Origin: Ischnura elegans
Lineage: Eukaryota; Arthropoda; Insecta; Odonata; Coenagrionidae
Assembly: GCF_921293095.1 (NCBI RefSeq)
Contig: NC_060248.1
Coordinates: 82,095,243 to 82,159,242, forward strand
Direction: 5' to 3'
DNA: 64,000 bases
How positions within the stretch are numbered: position 1 is the stretch's first letter; each line of letters opens with the position of its first letter. A program made the translations under genes and the position numbers. Under the pieces are notes generated by a model. The model was not told the DNA's origin. It worked only from the letters and a program-made list of their open reading frames with translations, and searched no databases. This document shows positions 14,280 through 64,000 of the stretch, one piece after another.

Positions 14280-15750
14280 TTGCTAAACGAGAAGATCACA
14301 TCAATACCTGGAAAAGACGGGATTAGTTTCCACTTGTTAAAATCCGTTGTTGATATAATTGCACCAGTCCTTTCACACTTTTGCAACCTAAACTTCACAA
14401 GTGAGCTGTGGTGATACCCTTCTTTAAGAAAGGAGATTGACTATCAGTTCATAATTACAGACCTATTTCTTTGTAATCAGTCTTTTCCAAAATATTAGAA
14501 AAAGCTGTAAAAGATCAAATTTTGAAATTTCTTTGTAAAAATGATTTCTTTAGCAAACATCAATTTGGCTTCCGTTCTGTAATGGGTACCGAAGATGCAC
14601 AGGAAATCTTCCTGACGCCGGTTTTTTAGCTATTATTTCAAACACACGTTTTAGTCTATTTATCGACTTTAAAAAGGCTTTCGATACACTGGATCACAAA
14701 ATATTAATGAATAAATTGGAAAAAGCGGGTATTCGTGGGATACCTCTTGATTAGTTCAAAATCTATTTACACATGAGGCAGCAATGTGTGAGAGTTCGGA
14801 GTTATTGCAGTAATTTTAAAATTGTAAACACAGGTGTACCGCAAGGTTTTCTTTTGGGTCCCATTTTATTTCTTGTGTACATTAATAATCTATGTTATTA
14901 TGGTTTTAAGGAGTGCTTAACAGCTATTGCGGATGATATGGCACTAAATTATGCTTCGAACAGCTGGGAGATGGTTAAGAGTAATATTAACTTAGATCTA
15001 AAGTTTTTAAGGCACTGGTTTGTTTGTAATGGACTGCAGTTAAAAGAAAAAACAAAATTTATATGTTATTTTCTTTGTTACCTTTATAATTATAATTGTA
15101 ATGTAGTGTGTCACTATTAGACTGCCTCGAATCTAATTGTGAGTGTCCAGAAATTAGCAAGTCAGTGAAATGAAATATCTCGGAATCATTGTCGATGACA
15201 AATTGAGACGGGCTAAACACATATCAAATGTTGGAACCACCCTCAGAAAATGCTACCCATGAAAATGTCTTAATTTTATCTCATAAGGAATAAATGTTCT
15301 TATAATTTCTTAAAAACAATATATACTGTTTTGGTCCAATCTAAATTAAATTATGGTATCGCATATCGGGGGAGTGCGTATATAAATGCGTAAAAACCAC
15401 TGTTTTTACTACAAAAAACAATATTTAGGCTTATTTCAGTCAAAAAAGGTATGAATATGCATACCCTCTCTTTGTATCTTGGAATCTACTTCCATTAAGA
15501 AATTTGTATTTCTACAAAATTCTACAGCTTTTTTTGTCATGAGTGGTAATAAAACAATACTTTTTGGAAGAATCTCCAGGCACAATTCCGGTGATCTTTT
15601 TACAGTAAAGCTACCAAAACCTAACAGAACTTTGTTCAAGAGGTGATTTCTGCATAAGGGCCCCAAGTAATACCATTTATTACCACTTGAAATGAAATCT
15701 GTTCGGTGTTCTTCAGTAAGGTTTTCGAAATTAATAGAGAAATGGCGTCT
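14280..15750 (+). pseudogene. Decayed CR1/Jockey-type LINE reverse transcriptase
   Basis: Translation in shifting frames gives the fingers-palm blocks of a non-LTR reverse transcriptase in the right order: PGKDGISFHLLKS, NYRPISL, HQFGFR, FIDFKKAFDTLDHK, NTGVPQG, GPILFLVYINNL, ADD (about 14926-14937), LRHWFVCNGLQL and KYLGIIVDDKL. Several stops and frameshifts interrupt it; the longest intact stretch is 14773-15120. The usual FADDT of the active site reads IADDM. No endonuclease domain was recognised upstream, so the copy is probably 5'-truncated and long dead. The block order fits CR1/Jockey elements; the exact clade needs a tree. Confidence 0.88.
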
Positions 15751-17243: not shown

Positions 17244-20116
17244 CACCGACAGAAATGCGATTCACAAAGTCAGAGTAACTCTGAGGGCGCTACATATCAA
17301 GGAGGTTGTAAATATCTGGAGGGGGCCGCACTGGTTTCGAGCGTGGAGCGAAAAGTGGCCGGAATGGGGTAGCTAGAGTAGTACAAGCTACAATCACTTT
17401 GACCAAAACATTGACAATCCTATAAGGGTCATTGCTTACTATTTGGTGAAATTTGTGGTCATAACTCGTAAATACATTAAAATTAACCATGGAACGCACA
17501 ATTTAAACCTTTTTTCTTACTTCATTGGTGGGCTTCGCGAAGTTATGACTCAAATATCTTTTCCCAGGGAAGAATTATTATCAATCATCGCGGTTACGTT
17601 CAACAACCAGCTCAGCTGAAAATAAAATTTTACTAGATTAGACTAGTCATTTACCTGCACTTACACGGGTATTGTATTTTATTATAGCCAACGGAAATTG
17701 ACAAATACAGTAATAAAGTATATTTTCAAGGATATTCTCACCGTTAAGTGGCTAATAGACACAGAGTTCATACATTAATATAAGTATCGCGAATAATGAT
17801 AAAAATGCTATGACAATCACCGACGAGCTAGTAATGAATATGGTAGCATTTTTCGCTTAATTTAGTTCATTTTTAGAACAAAACTTAGCCACCTCAGAAT
17901 ATCAGTCGGAGACTGAGTCAAAAAATTTTCAAACTAAGATGGCGGAACTTGGACTACGCCAAAAATTCGGAAGTAGCGCCTCCAGATATTCACAACCTCC
18001 TCATTTTTATTAATAAAAGCGATCCTTCTTTTTGTTGAGGCGTTCCTGCCGCAATGAACTATGGGCAGCAAACGTCACACAAAGCATGACATAGATATGA
18101 GAATTTCAGCGATCAACTCAACACTCACTACTTCGAAGAGGAAGAGTTTGGTGCTGCTGTAGGAACGTTCTTGACTGCGAATAGTAGGTGGAGATACAAC
18201 TCTTTCTCTTCCCACTCCGGCGATAAGACTATTGTTTAAAAATACGGCCCACAGTCTCCTAAAATTTCCCTCGCCGCTACCTGCGATGGAAATTGAACAA
18301 AATGGAGACAATAATATGTATTTTTTGCTACAAAAAATTAATGTTTCGCGCGATAGCCAGCATCCTATGTTAAGCCCCGTTTTATAACGGGAAGTCGTGG
18401 GCATTAAACTCATATCTCGCCGGGCACGTTCTCATTTTAAACGCATTCCGGTTCGCTCGTAACGACCCCCAAGGGTTAGGATTCGTAGTCATCGGAGGTT
18501 TCCGCCCGCGGGAGCGGATCCGTTTAGGACCTATAGGAACGCCCACGGTACGCGAGGAAGTTTCGAGGAAATAAAAAAAGAGAAGCAACAGTCCCTAATT
18601 GAATGGAAGATTTGATGCTAGCCAGTGGCACCCAGCACGAGCTCCCCTCACAAATATTCCCTTAATTCCATCTCCCGCCCCACTACTACGGAGCCCGCAT
18701 TAGCGGCTTCCGGGGAAATCTTGTCCGCCTGTCTCCTGGAACGCCGGAGCAGGTCCAGTCACGTCAGCGGCAACAATAGCGAACCAACCAGCAACGCTTA
18801 CTCAGCATCCCGCATCCCATGTATCCGCCAAAACAAAAATGGGAAGAATCCCAACTAGCAGGACTAGCGTTTACGGTTCCCGACAGCTTATATCTCTCGC
18901 CGGGGATAATTAAATACCTCTTTTTCGAAATATTATTTTTTTTCTCTCTTTTAAGCGACAAACTCGCATGAGATTACTTCCCATATCGGAAGAGAGATGT
19001 ACTTTTTACAGTTTTCGAAAATTTCGTAGACGGTGACCCTCGCAAAATTTTCGTCGTCAACTAGACGAGGCATTAAGGCGGGAAAGAGCTTCAATCTTCC
19101 GGAATGACCTACGGCGTTTAAATGGAATTTCCTCGTGCGCCCTTGTCTCCTGAAATCCGCTCGCGTCCATGATGCCTGCCATGATTCTCCCATCATCCCC
19201 GATGATTGCTGGGTATTTAAAGAGGAGGGAGTGTTTCCTCATTTGGCCCCCTGCGGACTAAAGGAGCTATGAGGGTGCGTGAGTTATACTTCCGTGGCAA
19301 TAAACGGGTCCAGAGGCGAAATAACGGGCAAAGTTCAGAGACTTTACAGGAGAACATTTATCAAAGGGTTTGCATCTGTCGCGCAAGTGAACTACAGCCT
19401 TTAAGTTTCAAGAATGATTTATACTCTAATGTGATGTTATGACTGCTGGCCTAATTTGGTTCCAGGTGAATCATGCAACGATATATGCATCCGATCACAA
19501 AACGGGCCTAAATAGAAAACTCATATTTTAGGTTTTGACAACACTGACGGGATTTGACTCCACTATGGATCGTCTGCATCGCATAGTGTACAGATCTCTG
19601 CACGAGAATTCTGCTGATTGGAGGTTCGATAAGGAGTTGAACTTCTTGAAACTAAAAATCGCTTCATAAAATGGTATCAAAATTCTTTAATAACCTGACT
19701 GAATACAAATATTATGTTTTCTGTGCTAAACATGAAAGGTCAAACTGATAATTTTCATGAGTGAGTGAGCAATGACATTGGTGTACAATTTCCCTATTTT
19801 TATATACTTCAACTGAAGATCATGCATGAGAATTGGGCGACATTCAAGCATAGGTTACAAATGACCTTTAATTGAGGAAAATATTCTTCTTTAAATCTTA
19901 TACTACAAGTGTACGTGATTCCACTCTTAATATGAATTCAGGCATGAAAAATAGAATTTACTCCATCATTTAAAAAAATTAAAGAATATAAACAATGGGA
20001 AATCAAGGAATATTATGAAATAAATAGCCACAGCTGTAGTAATTTGAGGACGCTTCCTCCGTTGACTTCCTTATCCCTAAGTCTTGAAGAATCCACACTC
20101 AGTGTCTATCCGTTCC
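17244..20116. other. No gene seen; GC-rich patch at about 18380-18860
   Basis: The patch opens frames on both strands (18075-18413 minus, 112 codons) without a recognisable domain. No repeat family defined. Confidence 0.5.
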
Positions 20117-20119
20117 TTA

Positions 20120-21595
20120 AGCCGATGTCCCACGGTCAAATTTGCATCAAAATATTTGCATCAAAATATTTGCATCAAAATGTTTGTCCAAATATTTTGA
20201 TGCAAATATTTTGATACAACTGGACTGGGGGTGTCCCACGATGCATCTCATTTTGATCAAAAACAAATGAAAGACGATATTTATGTGAACAATTAGGAAA
20301 CTTGTGGAGGTGGAGGATTCTTTCTTTTTAAGCAGGCGAAATTGTCTGAACAGCCCTCTTGAACATTAGAGATGCGAAAAAAAGAAAACAGAAGGAATGC
20401 TGAACTTGGCCTTGGCTGGAAAGGGGGTATGAAAGCGTTGGAATAAGCATGCTAAACATGTTGGAGAAGGAGTTGGTCGCCGATGTTCCCGTTTATTATC
20501 GATAATAATTGACAAGTCAGGATATTTTCATGTCCCTTATCAGCAAGGTTGAGGGCAGAATAAAACGCCAGGATACAAACGTGAGGCAGTTTATTCCCGC
20601 GAGGAAAATGTTATTAATAAATGATGGACATTGTGGTTGAGGAGATGTTATGAATAGTGCTGCAAGCGTGCATTTAAATCACATTTTTCTCTCCTAATCT
20701 AGCAGTTTCTAATATAAGGTCCTTATCCTATAATCATAGTAATAGAAACGGGCAGCTGTAGTGTTTCACAGGTACAATCGTCAGTTCATATTAGTCATTT
20801 CTCCAGCTGCTCGCTCGCATTGTATGCCTTCCACAAAGCGTAAAATTCGGCCTCAATACCTTAAGTAAATCTTTTATTATTTCCAAAACATCCCTCCTGG
20901 TATTGCGATTCTAAAGATCGCTTCCTTTCTATTAAAGATCAACTAATTATTACGGATTTCCTAGTTGAGAGCTTCCATCGCCTATCACTAGACAAATTTT
21001 TGCTTATATTTACCTTTAGGGCCACACCAGGCGATGAAATAGACGATCACGAACGTATATATATATATTTGAAATATTGTTTTGTGAATTCACTTCGTGG
21101 TATGGTGATATTATAAATTTAAAACTAAACCTTTTAGTATTCCATACAATACTAATGAAAAAACTCAACCGGTTTCGATCTTTTCAGGTCCTTATCTAGA
21201 GGTTTACGATTAAGATAACGACCTGAAAAGGTGGAAACCGGTTGGGTTTTTATTGCATACTGTGTGGAATACAACAAAGTTTATTTTTGTGTCCTTAATA
21301 TACATAATTATTAATTAAAATACTCATGCAGACGATAAATAAGTTTAATCTATTTGGCCTGTGTGTCAGCGCTTGGCGATGCTTTTTTGTCAAAGGCCCT
21401 GTGATTGGTTGGTTTCATCCAATTGGATGAAAATATAGAACCTGTCCTATCCATTTGTACAAATCGGTGATTTGTACAAACGATAGGACCAAAAGCCAGT
21501 TGAACAAAATTTTGACCGTGGGACAGGGTGCGCGTCAGTTGCATCAAATTTTGATGCAAATATTTTGACGCAAATTTGACCGTGGGACATCGGCT
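20120..21595. mobile_element. PIF/Harbinger-like non-autonomous element, 1.48 kb
   Basis: Both ends begin AGCCGATGTCCCACGGTCAA and the inverted repeat continues for about 48 bp with few mismatches. TTA flanks both ends (20117-20119 and 21596-21598), the target choice of PIF/Harbinger elements. Behind the left end, TTGCATCAAAATA-type units are repeated. No transposase frame is present. A second hairpin element sits inside at about 21138-21273. Confidence 0.8.
21138..21273. repeat. Long inverted repeat nested in the Harbinger-like element
   Basis: Arms of about 60 bp carry CAACCGGTTTC...CTTTTCAGGTC and the complement GACCTGAAAAG...GAAACCGGTTG, extending outward through TATTCCATACA/TGTGTGGAATA. 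Both strands contain CCTGAAAAG-n-GAAAC, a further relative of the CTGAAGA/GAAAC hairpins in this window. Confidence 0.7.
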
Positions 21596-22914
21596 TTAGA
21601 AACAATTCTGCTTTTTCATCCGAGCGAGGCTTCAATACATAACACTTTGTCGTAGAGAATTGTGCTTTATTCGAATGGCCAAGGAGGTTCCTTTAACTTG
21701 TTTATCTCTGTCAATATTTATATTTTAAAATAGATGCTAAGATGGTTAAAATTTTGATGATATCACGCAATTTTCTAACTATAATTTTCTTAAAAAATAT
21801 TATGTCGTCAAGATTTATGATGGTTAAAAATGGCAGGTATTTTGAAGGAATGATCACGCAAGGCATAAACCCAATTTCGCAAGGGAGAAGCCACAACGAT
21901 GTGGCGAACATCGGGAAAATAATAATTCGAGGTGAAGGAAATTAATAGCACGGTCTACTTCTAGGTGACACAGCACTAATCACGGAGACCCTTAACCGTG
22001 ATCTATAAGGTCATCAACCTCTTTTACCTTCACACGCGGAGAAGGTACGGAGCTCAGTACCATCCTAATGGCGCTGTCTTTAACGAATTGAGGCACATTA
22101 CCTTTTGCTCAGAGTCTTGAAAGACATGAAAAACGACCGCTACGTGGTTTGCAGCAAGTGAATTCCAGTCAGGAAGACTTAAAAGTATCCGACCTCAGTT
22201 TCCGGAAATAAATTTTCATTTGGCTTAACAGATTGCTCTTTGACCTCAAGAGAATGCGGCATCTTATTGTAGATTAGTACAACATAGCAAAAAAATTTTC
22301 TACAAAATTAATTTGGATGAAAGTTTTCAACTTATTTCCTTCGCTACCATAGGAACTTGCTCAATACCTCGTCGGCTCCATCAAAAGAATCACCAGTATC
22401 GCTAGAAGTCTCCACAATTTCAACTCACTAATGAATTTCCAATTTAATTATGCAGTATAACTCAACAATTCCGTAAACTCTAAGATTTTATTAAGGATAA
22501 TTTCTGGTAACATATAAATGACGTGAGACTCCATGAAGTTAAATTTGACGTAAGATATAATGTTAGTGAAATAGAAAACAAGTTTCTATTATTGCAATGA
22601 AGAGTAAATTGGTAAAATTCAAGAAAAATTTTATTGGGCGCCAACGGTTTCACCCGTCTCGGAATAGTAACTCAGAAGTAGTAAAAACACCTGTCTCGAA
22701 CTGACTCTCACTATCACATGAAACTCACAAGAATTTTTACCAACTATCAGTATTAATTAATTTTATCCCAATATTTCAAAGCTTCCACTAAGTTATGGAG
22801 AAGAAAGTAGTTTTTTCCAGGCAATGCCTTGTCGACGATTTATTTAATATTTTGGATTTTTAAGGGCATTAAATAATTAAGGTTGGACGAAAATGTGCGA
22901 TTTCAATTGTCTTA

Positions 22915-41091: not shown

Positions 41092-41222
41092 TTAATCACC
41101 TTTCACCTTACAAAGTTTAGGATGGTCCACAAATTCAACACCATAAGCCATTATAAAAACAAATGTTGAAACAACCATGCTGCCCCAAAACATCAGGAAC
41201 AACAATGACTCAGTGGTATATT
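41092..41222 (-). CDS. SACM1L: SACM1L exon 13, second transmembrane segment and stop
   Basis: Acceptor TTTTGCAG. Encodes [20 protein letters not shown], then [13 protein letters not shown] and TAA. The human equivalent runs VLFWG...FVDAPRL...KEKID. The KxKxx end should return the protein to the ER. I did not find a clear AATAAA on the minus strand just downstream. Confidence 0.95.
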
Positions 41223-44200
41223 CTGCAAAAAAAAGGAAAAATAATTTCAATGATATATCACTACAGAAATAAATTATACGCAAAACCACAATAAATGCCT
41301 AGATACATCATTTAAATACTTCAATAACATAATTTTAAAAAGAGCAGGTCGCTCAATCAAAAGTATACCATGCCAATGCATTCACACACGTAATTTTACA
41401 GGGAAATGCACACAAACTTGTTCTATAAATTGGATAGGTGGGCCATTTCATCTCAAATCAGGCAGATAGTGCAAAATCATGTCAGGTGACCATCACCGAT
41501 TTCTCTGAAATTTATATATGTGAAAGCAGTATCCTTGTGATGAATAACGATGACTTTATCTCTGCTCAGAACTGAACCGTCATAAAGTTACCGCCCCTTG
41601 AACATTGCAGTGTCAGGCCTCAGAGTAAAAAATGAAAAATCACATAAATGCTGATTACTAAGGAACCATTGCCCATAAAGCAGTGATTATTGTTTTATTG
41701 TAAAGAGAATTCATTTATGCACATTTTGGCATAACCTGCAAGTCATTTGAAGCAATAATAAACAAATAGGACTTGTTTAAACAATAAAAATTAGTCATTA
41801 TTTAACAATTTATTACTAAAAAAGGCCACCTTTTATTTTCTTTAAAATTTCTCAGCAAGTAGTTTAAATGTTCTGCTTTCAATTAAAAAAATAAAAAAAG
41901 GTAGTATTTTTATACTTTTTGTTTTAAGGCATGTCAAAGTTAGGCATGTTTACGACTATTTTACACCAAGATTGCATACCTTCAAGGGGGGAAAAATGCA
42001 GTTTCCTTCTACTTAGCATTCATAACAGTGAAAAGTTCATATCTGAATGATTGGTTACATCTATTGACTGAAAGCAAGTCCAATCTTGTTTACTTCCATG
42101 GCATCCAATGTATGCAAACACCCACTGCTACTGGCTGGAAACGGTGAATGAGTCGCAATTTGCACAGAGTATTTTCCAATGGCAGTTCACATAAGTCTTT
42201 CTTCTACTTTGGGCCATGTGGAACATTTCGATGGACCATGTGTATGCATAAATGAGACACTAATGTCATTCTCTTCTAAAGACACTGCAGTGATTTTTTA
42301 AATCAGGTTTGACCAGGTTTTTCGGAAACACACAATGAAGTCATTCATGGTGAGATTTTGAGTACTGTACGTCATTACATATATCTGAATTTGTAAGTGT
42401 CACAGCCTGTTTGATTATGTGGATTACAGAGCGAGCTTTAGTTGTCCCGTGTCTGTTAACTACCAAGACATGAAACTGTTGATGCCATGTATATGTGCAC
42501 CTTTCACCCAATAATTTTTTTGTCTACATAGGGTGGTTTCCTATGACCGTGTGACCTCTGGCTGCTTGCTGCCGAGCATGGCGGTAGCGTAGAGTTCCTT
42601 GCTAGCAGGTAGTGCTTGGTTTAAAAAAGGATTATTAATACCCTATCAAACAAAGAAAATTCTCTGACCAAAGGCAATTTTAAGAGGGGATTGTTAAGGG
42701 ATGTTTCCCGCAGCTCTGTGCCTCATGTATACATTGGTAATCTCAGATGATGTAAAACTCATATCCACTCGTATAGCATCTAGGTCTCTGTGACGTCATG
42801 TGGAGTGGCATCGCATCAGTGCCAATCTATCCTTTTTCAAATGAGGTTAAAATTGACCATTAAAATTCGTCTAAACAGGGATTTCTATAAATCAAATAAT
42901 TTGTATATTATGAATACAATGAAGGTGGGTAACCAATCGCAATCAATGCCTTTCGTTTTCTTTGATGAAGGAAATGAAAGGAATGAACCCTATTTGGCTA
43001 GTTTAACATGTTTAAAATGCAAAAGTTTGATATTAGGCAAGGATATACTCACATGTTGTACAAAGGACTTGTTTGAATTTACTTGCCACAATTGAAATAT
43101 CTCAGGTTTCAGTTTGTGTCATAATTTTTGACCAATTCTTGCAACTCTATCAGAAGGACCCTATTCATGTCCTGTTGCATTGAACAACCACCAATGACTT
43201 TCTTCCTGTTTAAGACTTTTCTCCAAGTCAAATATCTGAAATGTTTTTTTTAATTAGCGGCTGACTTTTCTAAAATATATGATTTATTTCTCCATATGAT
43301 ATCTTTTTACTCTATTGTTCTTCTATTGATTCGTCCTAAGAAAAGCATGTGCAGTGTCCTGTGAGAAATCATCTGAAGTGCCTGCATACATTAGTTATTA
43401 TATTCCACACAGGTTAATATTGATATCTGTACTTTTTGCCAGTCATACGGTTGTACTTAATCTGGAAGAATCACACTCCAATTCTCGGAAAAGTTGAAAT
43501 GAAGCACCAACTCCACACCAATTAGTGTTACCAACTTCTCTTTTTGAATAGCTTCCCTTTCTTTTTTCCAAATATGGTGATGATAAACACTTTTCTTGGT
43601 TCAATCCTAAACTTCGGCAATGAATTTCTCTGAATGAATGTTTTGTCTGAATGATTCTCAATGGCAGTGAACACATATTGCTGATTAGGAGTTACACAAG
43701 AACAATCTTTATCATCATCCAAGTAAAATGAAAGCACAATGTAAAATTGAGCACTATGAGGAAGAGGATTCCAGCAGTATACATCAGCATTGCCCCAAAT
43801 TCCGAGGTTTTTTTAGCTCTGCATGATATGTCAATCGTATGTTTGGTTGAAACTGGAAAAGCAACCAATTTATGTTGTTTAGATTAACTTGTGGAAAAGA
43901 ATGATAAAATTTGAACATGGTCACTCATAGACATTTCACTCTCGCTTCTTCAAAAACTGCTGAGATATTATTTTACCATGAAGTACATATTTGACATTTA
44001 TCACTTTCGTTAAGTTAGTAAATTCTTGCCTAATATGAAACTTGCATTTTACACATGTTAACAAGCTCAATTTAAACAAAAAAATAATTAGGTGAAAGTA
44101 GCACCTGAACATGGCGTCAACAGTTTCATGTCTTGGTAGTTAACAGACACGGGACAACTAAAGCTCGCTCTGTAATCCACATAATCAAACAGGCTGTGAC

Positions 44201-47200
44201 ACTTACAAATTCAGATATATGTAATGACGTACAGTACTCAAAATCTCACCATGAATGACTTCATTGTGTGTTTCCGAAAAACCTGGTCAAACCTGATTTA
44301 AAAAATCACTGCAGTGTCTTTAGAAGAGAATGACATTAGTGTCTCATTTATGCATACACATGGTCCATCGAAATGTTCCACATGGCCCAAAGTAGAAGAA
44401 AGACTTATGTGAACTGCCATTGGAAAATACTCTGTGCAAATTGCGACTCATTCACCGTTTCCAGCCAGTAGCAGTGGGTGTTTGCATACATTGGATGCCA
44501 TGGAAGTAAACAAGATTGGACTTGCTTTCAGTCAATAGATGTAACCAATCATTCAGATATGAACTTTTCACTGTTATGAATGCTAAGTAGAAGGAAACTG
44601 CATTTTTCCCCCCTTGAAGGTATGCAATCTTGGTGTAAAATAGTCGTAAACATGCCTAACTTTGACATGCCTTAAAACAAAAAGTATAAAAATACTACCT
44701 TTTTTTATTTTTTTAATTGAAAGCAGAACATTTAAACTACTTGCTGAGAAATTTTAAAGAAAATAAAAGGTGGCCTTTTTTAGTAATAAATTGTTAAATA
44801 ATGACTAATTTTTATTGTTTAAACAAGTCCTATTTGTTTATTATTGCTTCAAATGACTTGCAGGTTATGCCAAAATGTGCATAAATGAATTCTCTTTACA
44901 ATAAAACAATAATCACTGCTTTATGGGCAATGGTTCCTTAGTAATCAGCATTTATGTGATTTTTCATTTTTTACTCTGAGGCCTGACACTGCAATGTTCA
45001 AGGGGCGGTAACTTTATGACGGTTCAGTTCTGAGCAGAGATAAAGTCATCGTTATTCATCACAAGGATACTGCTTTCACATATATAAATTTCAGAGAAAT
45101 CGGTGATGGTCACCTGACACCCCTCTGCCTGATTTGAGATGAAATCCCCCAGGTATCATTCAAAACAACATCAGCTGATTATGTAAGGTAACCCTTTTCA
45201 TGACAGTTTCAAACCCACCCTTAATTTATTTAATTGTGCTTCATCAATAAATTAAGAATAAATATATTATTATTAGTTTGATAGCAAATACACTAGTACC
45301 ACTTAAGTACCCAATCTTGGGCCTCTTGTGAGGAAAACAAAAAATGGATTCCTTGACTCATGCCATATTTAAAAATATACATATATCTAAAATAACTGAG
45401 ATCTGTTGCCATTACAGCACCTTTTCCAACTGAAACCCCCCTCCCATTAGTACACCCCCACCTCAAATGAACACTTAAGTCAAAATTTATTATCCCTGGC
45501 AATAGCCTCAGTGCTATAGATAAAAAATTGCGTAAATTTCTCACATAATGCTCATCCACGTGTCAGCTGGATCCATTCAAAAAAATTTGTAGTGACCAAA
45601 TCAAAAAAGCAGGAGTAGACAGGGAATACAGAGTATGTAATAAGAGAGACAGCTATAAAACAATGTCTCACTCTCTCTCCGCATTTTTCCATCAAAGCAC
45701 AATACCAGGTACACTTACGAGATATAAATTTATAGAGATACATAGAGATTTTTCTTGAAGAATCGCTTGAGTCAATAATTCCCCGTTTTCTTTTCATACC
45801 ACTATAGCACCAATCATAACATTTGGAGCTTTTGTTATACCATCCTCATTGCCAAAAAAAACTAATAAAAAACATCTCAATAAGTACATAATTTATATTT
45901 TAAACAAAATAAAAACTTGTGAATCTGGAACTAAAAAATCCCTGAGAGATTAAATAGTTTCCTAATAAATGGACAAAAAATTTCATGACAAACAATCAAT
46001 AGCTTAATTGAAGTTTGTATGAAAAATGGCAAACCTTGCTTGGCAGGGTGGATTGGAAGATCAATTTTTCTCAAATCCATCTCGCCCAGTGAAAATATGT
46101 GGGACTGATCAAAAATAAGGCCTGGAAAATTTGAGACCTTTGGGTGAACCCCTGACACTCTCATATGTCATTTAGGGGGGAGGGTCACTCATCAAAAAAA
46201 TTAATGTTTTACGGTAATCCCCTAAATAGTTTGCCAAGAAAAATTTTGTGCATTTTGACATATCTCCATCCGTTAAGCCACAAAATGCAAAAGTGCGTCC
46301 ACAAAGAAAATATTCCAACCCCCACGCAGCATCACTGATATAAGAGCGGAAGGCTACTCCCCTCCCCTCCTCTCGTGCCTCTCCCCCTCCCACGCCCCGA
46401 ATACGGCAAAATTCATCCCGTGTATTCTGCTAGGACGGAGCTTATCTTTAATAATTTAAATTGACAGATGGTAGAAGGTAAAAAAAAGAATGCATGGTGA
46501 GAAGACTTGTGCCTTTTTTGGCGTTTCATCGGCATTAAACAAAATGACGTTTCCAACTTTTAGAGAAGTAATGAAATAATTTTGTAATGCTCATGATTTT
46601 TTTATATCCGAGAACGCAGGCAAAGAGCCTTCAGTCTACAAAGTGGCCACTAAAGTAGCTAGAAAGATTTGGGAACTATGGTGATGTGGTTCTCTTCCAG
46701 TAATGTCCGAGGGGTATGACTTAATGTCATTTTGATGGAGGCCTTTCAAGTCCCCTCCCCACCCACCACTCTCCCCTCCCAAACCCTAAATGCACCAAAA
46801 TTCACACCGAGTGCATCTTTCTTCATTAGTCTAAATAATATTTGATGTTTCAGCATCGTCTGTGGAGGAACAATCACGAAATTTACTCAATTAACTGCTC
46901 TCTAGTCTTTTCTGTATTTCTTACATTAGTGTCGTTCCTCATCTTTCGCTGCTGTCAACAAAGTTTAGGTAACCTCTTTCATGAATCTTTCGACCGCATG
47001 GGTAATACAATGGGTAATATTTCACTTCGAAGATGAACGTTGCTTCAACAAATTTTGAATTACAACAATGGTAAGGTCAGATATATATGGAGGTACCGTG
47101 GTCTCTCCCCAATTTATCATTAAGAACAGTAACTCAGCAAAATCTACAGGAAATGGCCATAAAATGGCCTAAAAGCATTTGAGCGAGTCAGGGGTTCACC

Positions 47201-50200
47201 TAGAGGTCTCAAATTTTTAGGGCCTTATTTTTGATCAGACCCACAACTTATTTTCACTAGGCCAGATGGATAGGAAAAAAATCAATTTTTCCGATCCACC
47301 CTATTGCATAGTTGATCTTCATTTCAAGTGATGACCTTCCCTCAACCCAAAGAAAGTATGAACAAATGTGTGCATTCATAATTAATCATTAACAATGGTC
47401 CTTAAAAAATTAAAAATTTTAGCCTCAGAATATACCTACCAGAAGGAGTTAGTACACTGGCAAAGAACATGGCTATTGCCACAAGCAGGACCAGAGGGAA
47501 CTGAAATGAAATGAAAATTAGAAAATCAGCACCAAAAAATTTGAGATTAAAAGGAGAATAAATGAACAGCATACTTCACCCACAGATTTTAAAATTATAA
47601 GACCAAAACGCATGATCTGGTGTGGTAAGTGCCCACCATGACAAATATTGCTATATAGCTTAGTTTAGTTTTATGTAGTTTATCACTGATATGCAAATGC
47701 ATTCTTAACATTCGAATATGGTTTCAGGGCACTAGAATTTATGGAAATATTGACATTTGCATGGGTCACTTCATATTTTTTAGACTACCTCCCACACTAA
47801 CTTTCTCCAAATTTTAACAGAATTGGTAAACATAGTGCTTGTTAATTAAAAAATGTATGGAAAACCATTTCCTAAAATATTGATTATTTTCCGAGTAATG
47901 GTTCATTGTTAATATGTAATTCACTTTCTCAGTTATACCTCATTATTTAACCTTTTCCCTGCTGTACACGTATATATACGTGTGGATGTTTCCTGACCCG
48001 GGAGACGACGGGCATATGTATATATACGTGTGAGATTTTCCCGGCCAGGATATCGAAAGCCGTGTATATACGTTTTCTAGCTCCCCCCCCTTTTAGGACG
48101 GTCGTGGGTTTACGATGTCTTTGTCTCGGGACCCAACGCTTCGGGGTTTAGGATTAACCCTCGGAATCCGGGAGCAGGTGCCCGGACCCTTCGTCTTTTA
48201 GAACCCCTCTCAGCGGTACAGGACAGCGGTCATTCAATTGTTTATACAGTCAATTTTCGAAATAAATATTTGTTCATTTCTCAAGAAATATACACTAAGA
48301 ATTGAATTATTTGTGTTTTGAGCAGCGTTTACAATTTTTAAACGAAATTCTACGACAAATATTAACTTATACCTCGAGTTATGCATAAACATCAACATGG
48401 AAATTGTTGCTGCGTTAAATGCATTGATAATGGCCTTAGAACTTCGTTTAAAATTTGACAATGCTCAGATAAGAATGAGGAATACAATTCAAAGTCTGTA
48501 ATTTACGTGCAAGCAACAATTATCCATTTGCTAAATACATATAAGCAATACATAAGTTGACCGCGAACCAATGCCGCACGTATGGTCATAAACCCGGAAA
48601 GGAGGGAGCACAACTACTCTCGGAGTCCAAGATAATGCGAAGTCCCTGCGTGGAGGGTCTTAAAAGGTTCAGCGAGACCCTTCTTAACAAACGCTCTCCA
48701 AAAATGCTCCGTACCACGAGAAAGAAGAGTCTCTTGGGGCTCAGTACAGCAGTCATGCTAAGACGAAAACTCCGCCGTCTCGAAAGGGTTAATTTAGCAA
48801 TAAGTCTTTGAAAATCAGTTTTCAATCTATGAAAGATTAATAACCATATTAATTGGTAACATTGGTAAGAAGAATATTTAGTTCGCATATCATAAATTGC
48901 TAAAACTATTTAAACCTACTTTACAACTAAGGTCTTTATGCCCACTGGAGAAAATGGTATCAAACTGATGTCAAAGTCAAACAGTGCTGAATAATATATA
49001 TCCATAAATACAAACATACTGTAAAATGAGCAGCACCATGTCAAGAGGTTGCTATTTGGAGTGTCCAAAGTAAAAAGCCCAAATGCCATAATCCAAAGTT
49101 GCCTCTTGTTTAGGTTAAGACTTTAAACTTGGCACAAAAACACACAAATGATAATAATTGAATAAAGAAACATAAGTTATTTTTCATAAATGCCATCTAT
49201 TACTAACACACTGAGTCTATAAATATGGATATCTAATAAAATGTGGCGAATCATAATTGCTAAAAAAATCTTGCAAACATTGGTTGTATTAAACTGTTGT
49301 AGAACTAAAAAATGTTTAAGGCAAAACTACCAAAAGATTCAGGTGCACTACAATTATACCACCCGATGTAATGAAAATATTGTTGAAAATACACCCCAGC
49401 AAGATAAATTTACTTTCAGTGAATAAAAAATATTTAATAATGCAACTTGAATGCATAAATTTTAGCAAAGCAGCAACAAAAGCAGCAGCAAATACATCAA
49501 AATTAGATATGGCTGGGGAAAAAGTGGTCATTTTCTCCTTTTTTGTTATGATATGACACAAATGCAAAAACTAATCATCAACTTGAATTCCAAACATCAC
49601 AGTTCAAAGTGACACGACCATGATATTCCCTGCTTAGATCGGTGATACTGCAGTATGCAACATATTCTCATTATTATATTAGCAATAGTAAAAGATTCAC
49701 AAATTACACTCGTACGCAGGCTTTTTTATTTCAATTTAAGCACTTGTATAGCATTCGTAATAGTGGAATACAAACAGTTTATATCGGTGTGGATCAACAA
49801 AAAAAAGATAACTTCTCAACTCGACAAAATTTCATTAAATGATGGCAATGAGTACATTTCAACAATATTTAATTATTGGAATTACTCCTTCTGCATTCAA
49901 AAAAAGAAAAGCCATGACTTCATCATTCCACATTATTTAATTGACCAACCATAGTCTCGCAGTGAAAATTAGCAATTAATGCTAATATTAAAATGAAATA
50001 TGTGATGCAAATACATGGATTAAACCATGCATGTATGTACATATTTCACATGCCATAAGAAGGAAAATTTTGCTAAACCAAACAATAAAACAAAAAGAAC
50101 TAAATATAGATATAGCATTGGCTTACTCAAAAAAAATTAGGGATATTTTTCAACAGGTAATTAAAATGAATTTTACTGACAATAATACCTTTAAATTAAA

Positions 50201-60631: not shown

Positions 60632-60925
60632 GACTATTCCAGAGTACCGTAATCAGCTGGCTGCGGCACACAATTTCGATTAGAGAAATTTGAAAATAAA
60701 TGAAAAACGAAAACCAAAAGTATGTCGACGATGTCGACTTTCGAATCACAATACCCGCATTCGAAGACGTCACTCGTGAACTTTGAGTTAAACAGATAGT
60801 ATAATTGATATTAGTACAGTCTGTGGCCTATGGCAGTTAATTCAAAACTCCGAAAATACTGTTTTTTTGTATCGTTACTCTTTCATTAAGTTGAAGACAA
60901 CGCGAGTGTTATTATTTTCATTCGA
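60632..60925. promoter_or_regulatory. Shared intergenic promoter region of SACM1L and SIRT5
   Basis: These 294 bp separate two start codons that point away from each other, so they must contain both 5' UTRs and at least the core promoters. GACGTCAC at 60766-60773 is a CRE/ATF-type half-palindrome. I see no convincing TATA box in either direction. Transcription starts cannot be placed from sequence alone. Confidence 0.6.
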
Positions 60926-61255
60926 ATGTTTAGAATAGGTACTAGAGTACGCAACTCTTTGGCAGGATACCATAGAGTGTGTGACGACTTAGCGATGGCT
61001 TCAAATTCCCGACCAATATCTGATATGGGAGCTTTTCGTCAACGGTTGCAAAAATCTAAGGATGTGGTTATTCTCAGTGGTGCTGGAGTGTCTGCTGAAT
61101 CCGGTGTACCCACTTTTAGGGGAGATGGAGGGTTTTGGAGAAAGTATCAAGCCACGAATTTGGCCACACCGGGTGCTTTTAGTAGAGATCCTTCTTTAGT
61201 TTGGGAATTTTACCATTACAGGAGAGAGCTGGTTTTGACAAAGGAGCCTAATCCG
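60926..61255 (+). CDS. SIRT5: SIRT5 exon 1
   Basis: 330 nt, 110 codons, from ATG to KEPNP. Donor GTTAGT; phase 0. Holds the NAD loop and the YxxR acyl-specificity pair. Confidence 0.93.
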
Positions 61256-64000
61256 GTTAGTCATCTGCTTTTCCTCAAAAATTGATAAAACACTATTGTG
61301 TTTCTGCTTTAGTTTCTAATATCCAAAAAATTGAAAGGCTATGGAATCTAGTAAGGCCGTTTTTGATATTTTCACGATCATGGCCTTCAGGATTGAGATT
61401 TATTTGTATTGCTATCCGTGCACTCTTAGTGTAGTGGTGTCCATAGGAGTAGGAAACAAAATGTGGCATTGTTTGGGAGGTTTCTCGGTAGATTACCGCG
61501 ACAATTTTTCGTGATATTTACGGACTCGATGGCTTTAGGGATTGACGAAAGATATTTTTAAATGACCACCAGGTTATTGAGGCACTTGAGAAAAGGATGA
61601 GAAAAATAGTTATGATTATGGAAGAATACTTAGTCGAAAGTAAGGCAATCGTGCTGCATAACTAATTTAAGTTGGCATTTTACTGTTTAGAACTCCAATC
61701 ATATATATTATAATTTCTAATTCACATTATTTACCTGAATACATGCTATCCCCTTCAAATAGAGGCATACCCCATTCATTTGCAATTAGAATCAATTTCT
61801 ACAGTGTACATACTCAATTACAAGTAACCTAATTTATGATCGAATAATGTCATCTATTTTAGTCTTTGTTGTTCCTTTCTGTGAATCAATGGACCCTTGG
61901 CAGGGTAATGATTGCCTTCATCTCATCATTAGTTTCTAAACTTATGCTGATTGCCTTAATATATATCTGACAGTGTACACTGTCATCTCTTCATTTTTCT
62001 GCCGCAAGCTGTTGCTATATCCATATTATTGGCTTCACTTTTGTTTGGGGAAAAACTTAAATGCCAACTAATCACGATAATTTTTCATTCAAGCTATATT
62101 ATTTCACAGGCTCACATTGCAATTGCTGAATTTCAAAAGAGGTATTTGAGTGAAGGGAAACAAGCTACGATTATTACTCAAAATATCGATGGCCTTCACC
62201 AAAGAGCTGGAGCACAGAATGTCATAGAAATTCATGGATCCTTGTTTAAAACCCGATGTACTAAATGTGGAAATGTTGAAGTCAACAATGACAGCCCTAT
62301 TTGTCCTGCACTGAAAGACAAAGGGTAGGTTCACATTAAATTTGTTTCTAAATTTTTAAGACAGATAAAATTTAGTAATTGTCACTCACTCCTTTTGGCA
62401 GAGCCCCTGATCCTGATGCTAATTCTGCAGACATTAAAGTTGAAGACCTTCCACACTGTGGGAACTGCAAAGGTTTACTCCGTCCACATGTGGTATGGTT
62501 TGGGGAGTCGTTATTTGAAGATGTTTTGGATGAAGTTGGTTAGTATACCCATTGAGCACTATATTTTCATTGCATATTAGAATTATTTTTTGGGCACTTC
62601 AAGAGTCATAGATATCATCCCCTTAAGATGCCTCCCCAAATAAATCATGAAGTATTCTACTCGAAATAGAAGCCAAAAGTTTTGTCTTAAATATAATTCA
62701 TGAAGCAATTGCACTGATATGTTAAAATTATTTTTTTATTAACACTTCCAAGAAGGAAGCATTTTTAGGTGATGGGAAAAAATTTACATCTTTCATCGAG
62801 TCCTCACTTACAATTTATCTATGTCTCAGTTTGATTTATAAATTTACAATGATGTTCCACTTACAGAGATATGAACTGATATGCCTTCACATTTATGAGT
62901 CAAAGGTTGTTATGAATATTTCAATAAAGTGTCAACCAAAATTTAAACTAGAAAATCATGTTTCTTATCCAACTACATAATTTTAGGATGGCTTCTTAGA
63001 CAAGATGAAAACTTACACAATTATATTGTGCATAGTGCTGAATTACTATTGCTTTTACAGCTTTACTTATCAGTTCTCTTGAGGTAATGGTGAGGAGTGC
63101 ACATCTCTGGATTTTCCAATAACCAAACCAAAGTACAAGGGGCATATGATCAGTAAGGTCTCCAATTTTTTGCCCTAGTCATTGAGATTCATTGTCAATA
63201 TATATTACATGGTAAGAAACCTTGAACATTCTGCTATTGTTCGATGTAGTCGCTTTCAAGCTTGATGAATTTCCATATCTGTGAGATGAACTTTAGCATT
63301 CCCTTCTCAAAGCAGCTTCTTGTAAGAAGTTAAGAACTGCTTCTCGAGCTTCGGTGTAGTTCGTGAATAACAAAATTTCAGGAAGCCAAGCCCTTGCATT
63401 TTTGTGCAAATTTTTTAAATTCAATTTCTTAAATTTTGTTCATAAATGCTAGGAAACTTAGCGATTCTTTTTATGCTTTTAGATGTACAAAATTTAAATT
63501 GCATGTACATACCTGAAAACTGAAAACCCTCGGCACTTGTGATGACTGGACTTGAACATCACACTTTTCCACTTGATATTAGTTGTTATTTAACAAGTAA
63601 TTTCTTCTTTTCTGCTTGCCAGTTATCTAAATGAAATTATCAGGTGTTAGTTTTTTGTTTCTCCTGAATAAATTATTTTTACTTTCCACCATAGTCCACC
63701 AAAATAGTTTGCATGTAGTTCATTAATCAATAGATGTAACCTTATAAATGAATGCCTACCTTTTCCTTATGAATTTATAACCCTTCTCCTTCATAATAAA
63801 CATGAAATATACTGCCTGACTGGGATTGGATCTCAAAAGGTTGGTAATCATGGACCAGATCACGTATTTTCAATCTCTTGAAAAGTACTTTACTTAATCA
63901 GCCATCACTAGTAAAAGCTCTATTTAGCAACTCAGAGCAAGGTGCGTTGATGTTTTTTTTCAGCTGGACATTTGAATTCCTGTGACCTGTGTCTGGTTGT
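60926..64000 (+). CDS. SIRT5: NAD-dependent protein deacylase sirtuin-5 (SIRT5-like), partial at the window edge
   Basis: SIRT5 removes succinyl, malonyl and glutaryl groups from lysines, using NAD+, mainly in mitochondria. Four exons give 239 codons of about 310. The start [10 protein letters not shown] is basic and Ser/Arg-rich, as expected for a mitochondrial presequence. A second ATG lies at residue 24. [15 protein letters not shown] (52-66) is the NAD-binding loop. Tyr96 and Arg99 in FYHYRRE match human Tyr102/Arg105, which select acidic acyl groups. TQNID (133-137), catalytic His152 in EIHGSLF, and the zinc cysteines Cys160, Cys163, Cys201 and Cys204 are all present. The second zinc pair is CxxC where human has a longer spacing. 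The last bases encode CDLCLVV, so the Rossmann half continues beyond the window. It is divergently paired with SACM1L across 294 bp. Confidence 0.95.
62110..62324 (+). CDS. SIRT5: SIRT5 exon 2
   Basis: Acceptor TTTCACAG, donor GTAGGT. 215 nt. Encodes [36 protein letters not shown] and CPALKDK, matching SIRT5 block by block. Confidence 0.95.
62402..62538 (+). CDS. SIRT5: SIRT5 exon 3
   Basis: Acceptor TTTGGCAG after a 77-bp intron, donor GTTAGT. 137 nt. Encodes [20 protein letters not shown], with the second zinc pair and the conserved PHVVWFGE. Confidence 0.94.
63964..64000 (+). CDS. SIRT5: SIRT5 exon 4, cut by the window edge
   Basis: A T-rich tract and CAG acceptor precede it. It joins exon 3 in phase 1 to read [12 protein letters not shown], the sirtuin segment that precedes GTSSVV. 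The exon runs off the end of the window. Confidence 0.88.

Follow-up and report, generated by a model that had tools for sequence, protein, structure and literature searches.

Several described systems combine long inverted repeats with transposition or with exchange between repeat arms; what is said of them here follows the consulted parts of the cited papers. Sola transposons produce 4-bp target-site duplications, carry terminal inverted repeats (TIRs) of 11 to 1124 bp and are mostly 2–9 kb long (PMC10741241). P elements produce duplications of 7–8 bp (PMC5199201), and in the P superfamily of Drosophila, GalileoN copies 1 and 2 differ between their own TIRs by 0.0018 and 0.0071, against 0.067–0.069 between the TIRs of copy 1 and copy 2 (PMC2775673, Table 2); GalileoN copies 4 and 5, called chimeric, differ between their own TIRs by 0.0628 and 0.0570 (PMC2775673). 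Tetris, placed in Mutator, has duplications of 8–10 bp and 220-bp repeats within its TIRs (PMC4079207). In yeast, template switching at short inverted repeats leads to arm homogenisation and spacer inversion (PMC8604942). Here we analyse a 64,000-bp stretch of the genome of the damselfly Ischnura elegans (C3:82095243-82159242, hereafter the window; 1,722,721,009 bases in 110 contigs), in which the last intron of the SACM1L gene contains a foldback-like cut-and-paste transposon, apparently non-autonomous. It belongs to a dispersed family with common boundaries, target duplications, asymmetric ends, homogenised arms and spacers whose orientation switches between close relatives. We consider it very probable that the arms of the element recombine with each other, and that this both homogenises the arms and flips the spacer.

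The host gene lies on the minus strand and was identified as SACM1L/SAC1 from three exon translations that match SAC1 in PDB (4tu3, 1.9e-50; 3lwt, 3.6e-50), which agrees with the gene name in an initial annotation made from the letters of the window. Its last coding exon (41095–41222, minus strand) and predicted penultimate exon (47440–47500, minus strand) delimit a last intron of 6217 bp (47439 to 41223), in which 217 bp separate the element from the last exon. The penultimate exon was recognised by a hydrophobic peptide and splice sites, without a significant homology match; were it not real, the last intron would be longer and the repeat would still lie inside it.

The kilobase-scale inverted repeat described in that annotation is real, and its coordinates were correct to within a few bases. 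Positions 41480–42529 pair with 44070–45119 as inverted arms of 1050 nt each, separated by 1540 nt. In a pairwise comparison, 41480–42482 equals the reverse complement of 44117–45119 at 1003/1003 sites, as expected from the claim that the central kilobase has no arm differences. Divergence of both borders, likewise claimed, is also seen: there are 10 mismatches within the inner 47 bp, and the outer end differs by a few substitutions and indels. Beyond the arms, weaker pairing reaches 41433/45157 on the outside and joins 42992–43052 to 44014–44071 (82%) on the inside; this inward continuation shows a 462-bp segment to be present in the left arm and missing from the right. In 200 mononucleotide shuffles of a 5.7-kb segment, exact inverted matches reached at most 20 nt.

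Other copies, which the initial annotation had proposed to look for, are numerous: a genome search with the left arm, in which scoring was limited to the best of 674 first-look candidates, gave at least 42 matches at 93–100%, two of them the window's own and many arranged as inverted pairs. Twenty loci from these matches were read. Copies end at the same two points and are flanked by a direct duplication of 4 bp, which in the window reads AGGT (41436–41439 and 45151–45154). There the whole element occupies 41440–45150 (3711 bp) and has ends in common with 18 other complete copies. The duplication is perfect in 32 of the 38 complete copies read (23/26, 2/2, 6/9 short copies by eye and 1/1 by eye); L025, L026, L032 and L034, with one end only in the fetched stretch, stand outside all complete-copy counts. 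Both arms, the borders, the spacer and the duplications thus recur at many loci, and the earlier suggestion of a recent local event with frayed borders fails.

Among the six misses, L040 (C3:27093429) and L041 (C3:27298857) are 531 bp long, lie 205 kb from each other and agree in ends and flanks; they look like duplicates of one locus, which suggests a segmental duplication. Three further complete copies (L009, L017 and L031) have non-matching flanking 4-mers and are possible products of exchange between copies. Such exchange has been reported for Galileo.

The two ends of the element are not equivalent. The left end (41440–41479 in the window, plus strand) consists of GGGCC, a 21-bp core and a left-type tag, and the right end (45120–45150, read on the minus strand) of GGGGG, the same core and a different, right-type tag. 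Fourteen alignment columns separate left from right ends, and each is fixed in all 19 arm-selected complete copies; the outer arm differences are such end-type differences, which does not support local fraying. The differences in the inner 47 bp also recur in many other copies, some as mosaics, on the side set by the spacer. The exceptions are two copies found later (L035 and L036), which have the left tag at both ends together with perfect duplications, and outermost bases GGGGG and GGGTG on the other side. They suggest that conversion can run past its usual limit.

A genome-wide search allowing up to 3 mismatches gave 330 left and 275 right ends, and 0 matches to the reversed pattern. Our lists of exact ends with a preceding A or T contain 318 entries (171 left and 147 right), which form 96 neighbouring pairs less than 12 kb apart, 95 of which are convergent. 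Typed by their outer bases, the convergent pairs comprise 92 left–right, 3 left–left and 0 right–right combinations (p ∼7e-24 versus an even split), from which we infer that mobility needs one end of each kind. Sizes among the 92 left–right pairs concentrate at 3.83–3.92 kb (28 pairs) and 3.68–3.72 kb (12 pairs), and a second, sharp class consists of 13 left–right pairs of 1763–1831 bp (e.g. C4:126587189-126589018 and C19:6300848-6302676). The coordinate lists place left-type ends on both sides at C6:47514436-47517799, C8:4080603-4084074 and C9:8859212-8865365. The 21-bp end core has 0 matches in viral contigs.

We then compared the divergence of the arms with that of the spacer. The spacer tree includes 25 of 28 copies (without L019, which has a short spacer, and L020 and L038, in which the spacer was not found; L049 came later), and the expected number of arm differences was taken as twice each copy's end branch on this tree. 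Over the central 1003 bp of these 25 copies, 72 arm–arm differences are observed versus ∼546 expected, and 23 of the 25 fall below their expectation (Wilcoxon p 6e-7). The contrast is weaker when the family-wide diverged inner 47 bp is included (204 versus 585; 17/25 below expectation, p 0.001), and high within-copy values of L019, L023 and L028 reflect truncated arms and vanish on the central 1003 bp. For the left arm, the nearest of all arms is the right arm of its own copy in 26 of 28 copies. Of the changes confined to a single element, 168 are present in both of its arms and 53 in only one; for the window copy the counts are 4 and 0. Gene conversion between arms, one of the explanations offered in the initial annotation, is thus supported, as a property of the family and not one private to the window locus. 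Arm homogenisation is also precedented in Galileo, on the consulted part of its description.

The spacer itself occurs in two orientations. In the window copy (orientation A) the spacer is joined to the left end by its CTACATAGGGTGG side; L009 and others have the opposite side there. Among 29 copies, 10 are A, 17 are B and 2 are unclassed, the orientation of L049 being taken from match directions. The 25-copy spacer tree requires at least 8 switches, 6 of them forced by well-supported branches, and orientation does not cluster on the tree (at least 8 switches versus a shuffled mean of 7.5–7.6). Close relatives are opposed, as in L013 versus L017 and L009 versus L010. The same ∼161-bp stretch is gone from the window copy, L021 and L022, which have one deletion junction in common, and despite this junction the window copy is A and the other two are B. 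We found no report of spacer flipping in a transposon in a literature search limited to open-licence papers, which is weak evidence of novelty.

These observations can be joined in one scheme. Insertion into the last SACM1L intron would have duplicated the 4-bp target, and a transposase supplied in trans would need one left and one right end, so that the ends stay different. The arms of one element would then recombine: a non-crossover outcome would give gene conversion, and hence arm identity, and a crossover between the inverted arms would give spacer inversion, and hence the flipped spacer. Exchange would usually be bounded on the outside by the end tags and on the inside by the one-sided segment; it may proceed by homologous recombination, or by template switching during replication or gap repair, and copies without a middle look like products of interrupted gap repair. 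On this scheme the 1003-bp identity in the window reflects where arm exchange now stands and does not point to a SACM1L function.

Several points weigh against recombination between the arms as the explanation. Perfect duplications are missing from 6 of the 38 complete copies. The arms are less similar in L024 (15/1002) and in L038 (10/345, over a short, messy overlap), and L017 and L018 (2/25) exceed their very small expectations. The spacer end branches behind the expectation may include time spent in unsampled donors, and the spacer tree comes from a quick search with support values from the Shimodaira–Hasegawa-like approximate likelihood-ratio test (SH-aLRT) only. Polishing with short linked reads could erase a few arm differences. 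Copies L029–L049 were chosen by their end sequence and so provide no independent test of the ends. No transposase or autonomous copy was found among the copies read, and a single assembly does not tell whether exchange happens in place or during transposition.

The last point leads to the alternative that survives best, in which exchange takes place only during transposition: the arms would be equalised, and the spacer perhaps flipped, in gap-repair copying, after which the arms would diverge and their identity would date the insertion, as with long terminal repeats. The short copies L040–L048, which have lost the middle and have junctions inside the arms, fit interrupted gap repair, and the low arm divergence of most copies could mean recent insertion. 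On the other side, L030, L033 and L037 lie on long end branches and have arms that differ by only 0.51%, 0.30% and 0.71%, versus 6–9% expected, which fits exchange in place; this is not decisive because the end branches may include donor time. We regard exchange confined to transposition as possible, if somewhat doubtful. The opposite extreme is that every full-length copy is a live, reversible switch, in which arms recombine in place so frequently that spacer orientation varies among individuals, perhaps among cells, and in which the ends stay asymmetric because a copy with equal ends would no longer move. This seems rather unlikely to us; if true, the species would carry scores of inversion polymorphisms below 4 kb, one of them in the last SACM1L intron.

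The intron could fold into a duplex of ∼1 kb, which, as the initial annotation proposed, might be edited by ADAR or give Dicer-2 hairpin siRNAs. Selection for a hairpin RNA in the host gene, as a source of small interfering RNAs or a substrate for editing, would account for a long perfect duplex in a transcribed intron, but the same arm identity occurs at many unrelated loci, which makes this explanation highly improbable. An artefact of assembly or polishing, with one arm written over the other, deserves a thought because the assembly (ioIscEleg1.1) had one polishing round with 10X linked short reads (PMC9975421). It was, however, built from HiFi reads (PMC9975421), private changes occur in both arms at many loci, and flipped spacers and target duplications cannot come from polishing, so that we give such an artefact hardly any credence. 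Both arms, with duplications, are found in many independent copies, which makes the variant with a single real arm very unlikely. A local event confined to the SACM1L intron, either an inverted duplication or gene conversion, would explain 1003 exact matches with diverged borders, and is refuted, for practical purposes, by the dispersed copies.

Recombination between the arms of individual elements thus remains our preferred explanation, and it gives the family a wider use. The same kilobase inverted repeat at many loci of one genome is a replicated natural experiment, in which the spacer of each copy serves as a clock, its orientation marks direction and the two ends are labelled. Copy by copy, it becomes possible to count conversions and crossovers between inverted repeats in an animal germline, and the limits of their tracts. 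For the window, a perfect kilobase intronic hairpin need not mean recent origin or RNA function.

The closest systems differ from the damselfly element in informative ways. Its inverted ends are common to 19/19 arm-selected copies, its duplication is constantly 4 bp and its arms measure ∼1.05 kb, which are traits of TIR and foldback-like transposons. From the 4-bp duplications and kilobase arms, Sola is provisionally the best-fitting superfamily: the duplication length agrees, and the long TIR range and element size of Sola cover the damselfly element. A difference is that Sola2 duplications are AT-rich (PMC3627910, as far as consulted), whereas the damselfly ones are mixed. The placement is provisional because no transposase was found among the copies read. 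The initial annotation had named no transposon superfamily; the structure is nevertheless that of a transposon copy, and its caution about the superfamily stands to the extent just given.

Galileo and GalileoN resemble the damselfly element in their long inverted ends, many non-autonomous copies and, for copies 1 and 2, low within-copy TIR divergence. They differ in the 7–8 bp duplication of the P superfamily, and spacer flipping relative to the ends is not described for Galileo in the consulted part of PMC2775673. Foldback elements such as Tetris also have a middle flanked by long inverted arms; their complete copies lack conserved open reading frames, and their autonomous source was not found (PMC4079207, in part). 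Tetris and Mutator-type foldback elements differ in their 8–10 bp duplication. Unlike classical FB and Tetris arms, 41440–45150 has no tandem arrays that we could find. Template switching in yeast produces the same two outcomes as seen here, at short repeats and not at kilobase transposon arms at many loci. Two further groups were rejected. Ginger has TG...CA termini (PMC10741241, in part), and the damselfly termini are GG...CC. PiggyBac requires a TTAA target, and the damselfly targets are AGGT, AGTA, AGCA, TACT and others. Kolobok and Sola3 also use TTAA, and do not fit these targets either.

We also inspected the copies for coding capacity. No stop-free frame of at least 100 amino acids is common to all 19 copies examined; seven of them (L009–L012 and L014–L016) have an open frame of ∼101–111 amino acids at the inner arm, which is broken in the window. 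A Pfam search of nine arm and spacer peptides gave no match above the cut-off (the best E values, 0.14 and 0.023, fall short of the curated score). Three copies were considered and rejected as autonomous: in L037 there is a nested element that has inverted ends of its own and a direct repeat of 8 bp, in L038 a nested sequence with reverse-transcriptase-like frames (judged by reading, without a domain search) and in L039 an extra insertion of ∼1.5 kb. The transposase search left out left–right copies of 5.4, 7.2, 8.4 and 9.7 kb (C11:4735804, C7:25409977, C9:38909203 and C4:113679449, the last only in part in L026), three left–left pairs and the 13 copies of 1763–1831 bp; a transposase source may lie among these long copies, the left–left pairs or the short class. 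Rfam at the gathering threshold and a tRNA scan with the bacterial code returned nothing in the whole window.

Between its two ends, the window copy is organized as follows. The left arm comprises the part identical to the right arm (41480–42482, plus strand) and an inner border (42483–42529, plus strand) whose 10 mismatches to the right arm recur in many other copies. The left-arm-only segment (42530–42991) comes next, without the ∼161 bp that most other full copies have, followed by an inward left-arm remnant (42992–43052, plus strand, 82% to 44014–44071) and the unpaired spacer middle (43053–44013), in which no Pfam domain was found. The right side mirrors this order, with an inward right-arm remnant (44014–44069), the inner border (44070–44116) and the part identical to the left arm (44117–45119), all on the minus strand. 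Outside the element, the flank of L010 (L010:6891-7279) matches segment 42530–42991 at 84% along 392 bp, and for this reason the segment is probably an older repeat embedded in the spacer. The long copies L018, L031 and L049, all of orientation A, apparently have in common an additional insertion close to the inner right arm, and L018 and L031 have almost the same spacer sequence.

Elsewhere in the window, a sirtuin exon lies at 60890–61282 (plus strand; SIR2 domain, E 2.7e-13), with a further sirtuin-like frame at 61960–62328. A reverse-transcriptase fragment occurs at 14755–15117 (plus strand; RVT_1, E 6.9e-5, below the Pfam cut-off). Another inverted pair, 20112–20167 and 21548–21603 (56 bp at 95%, 1380 bp between), is situated beside a 14-bp tandem array.

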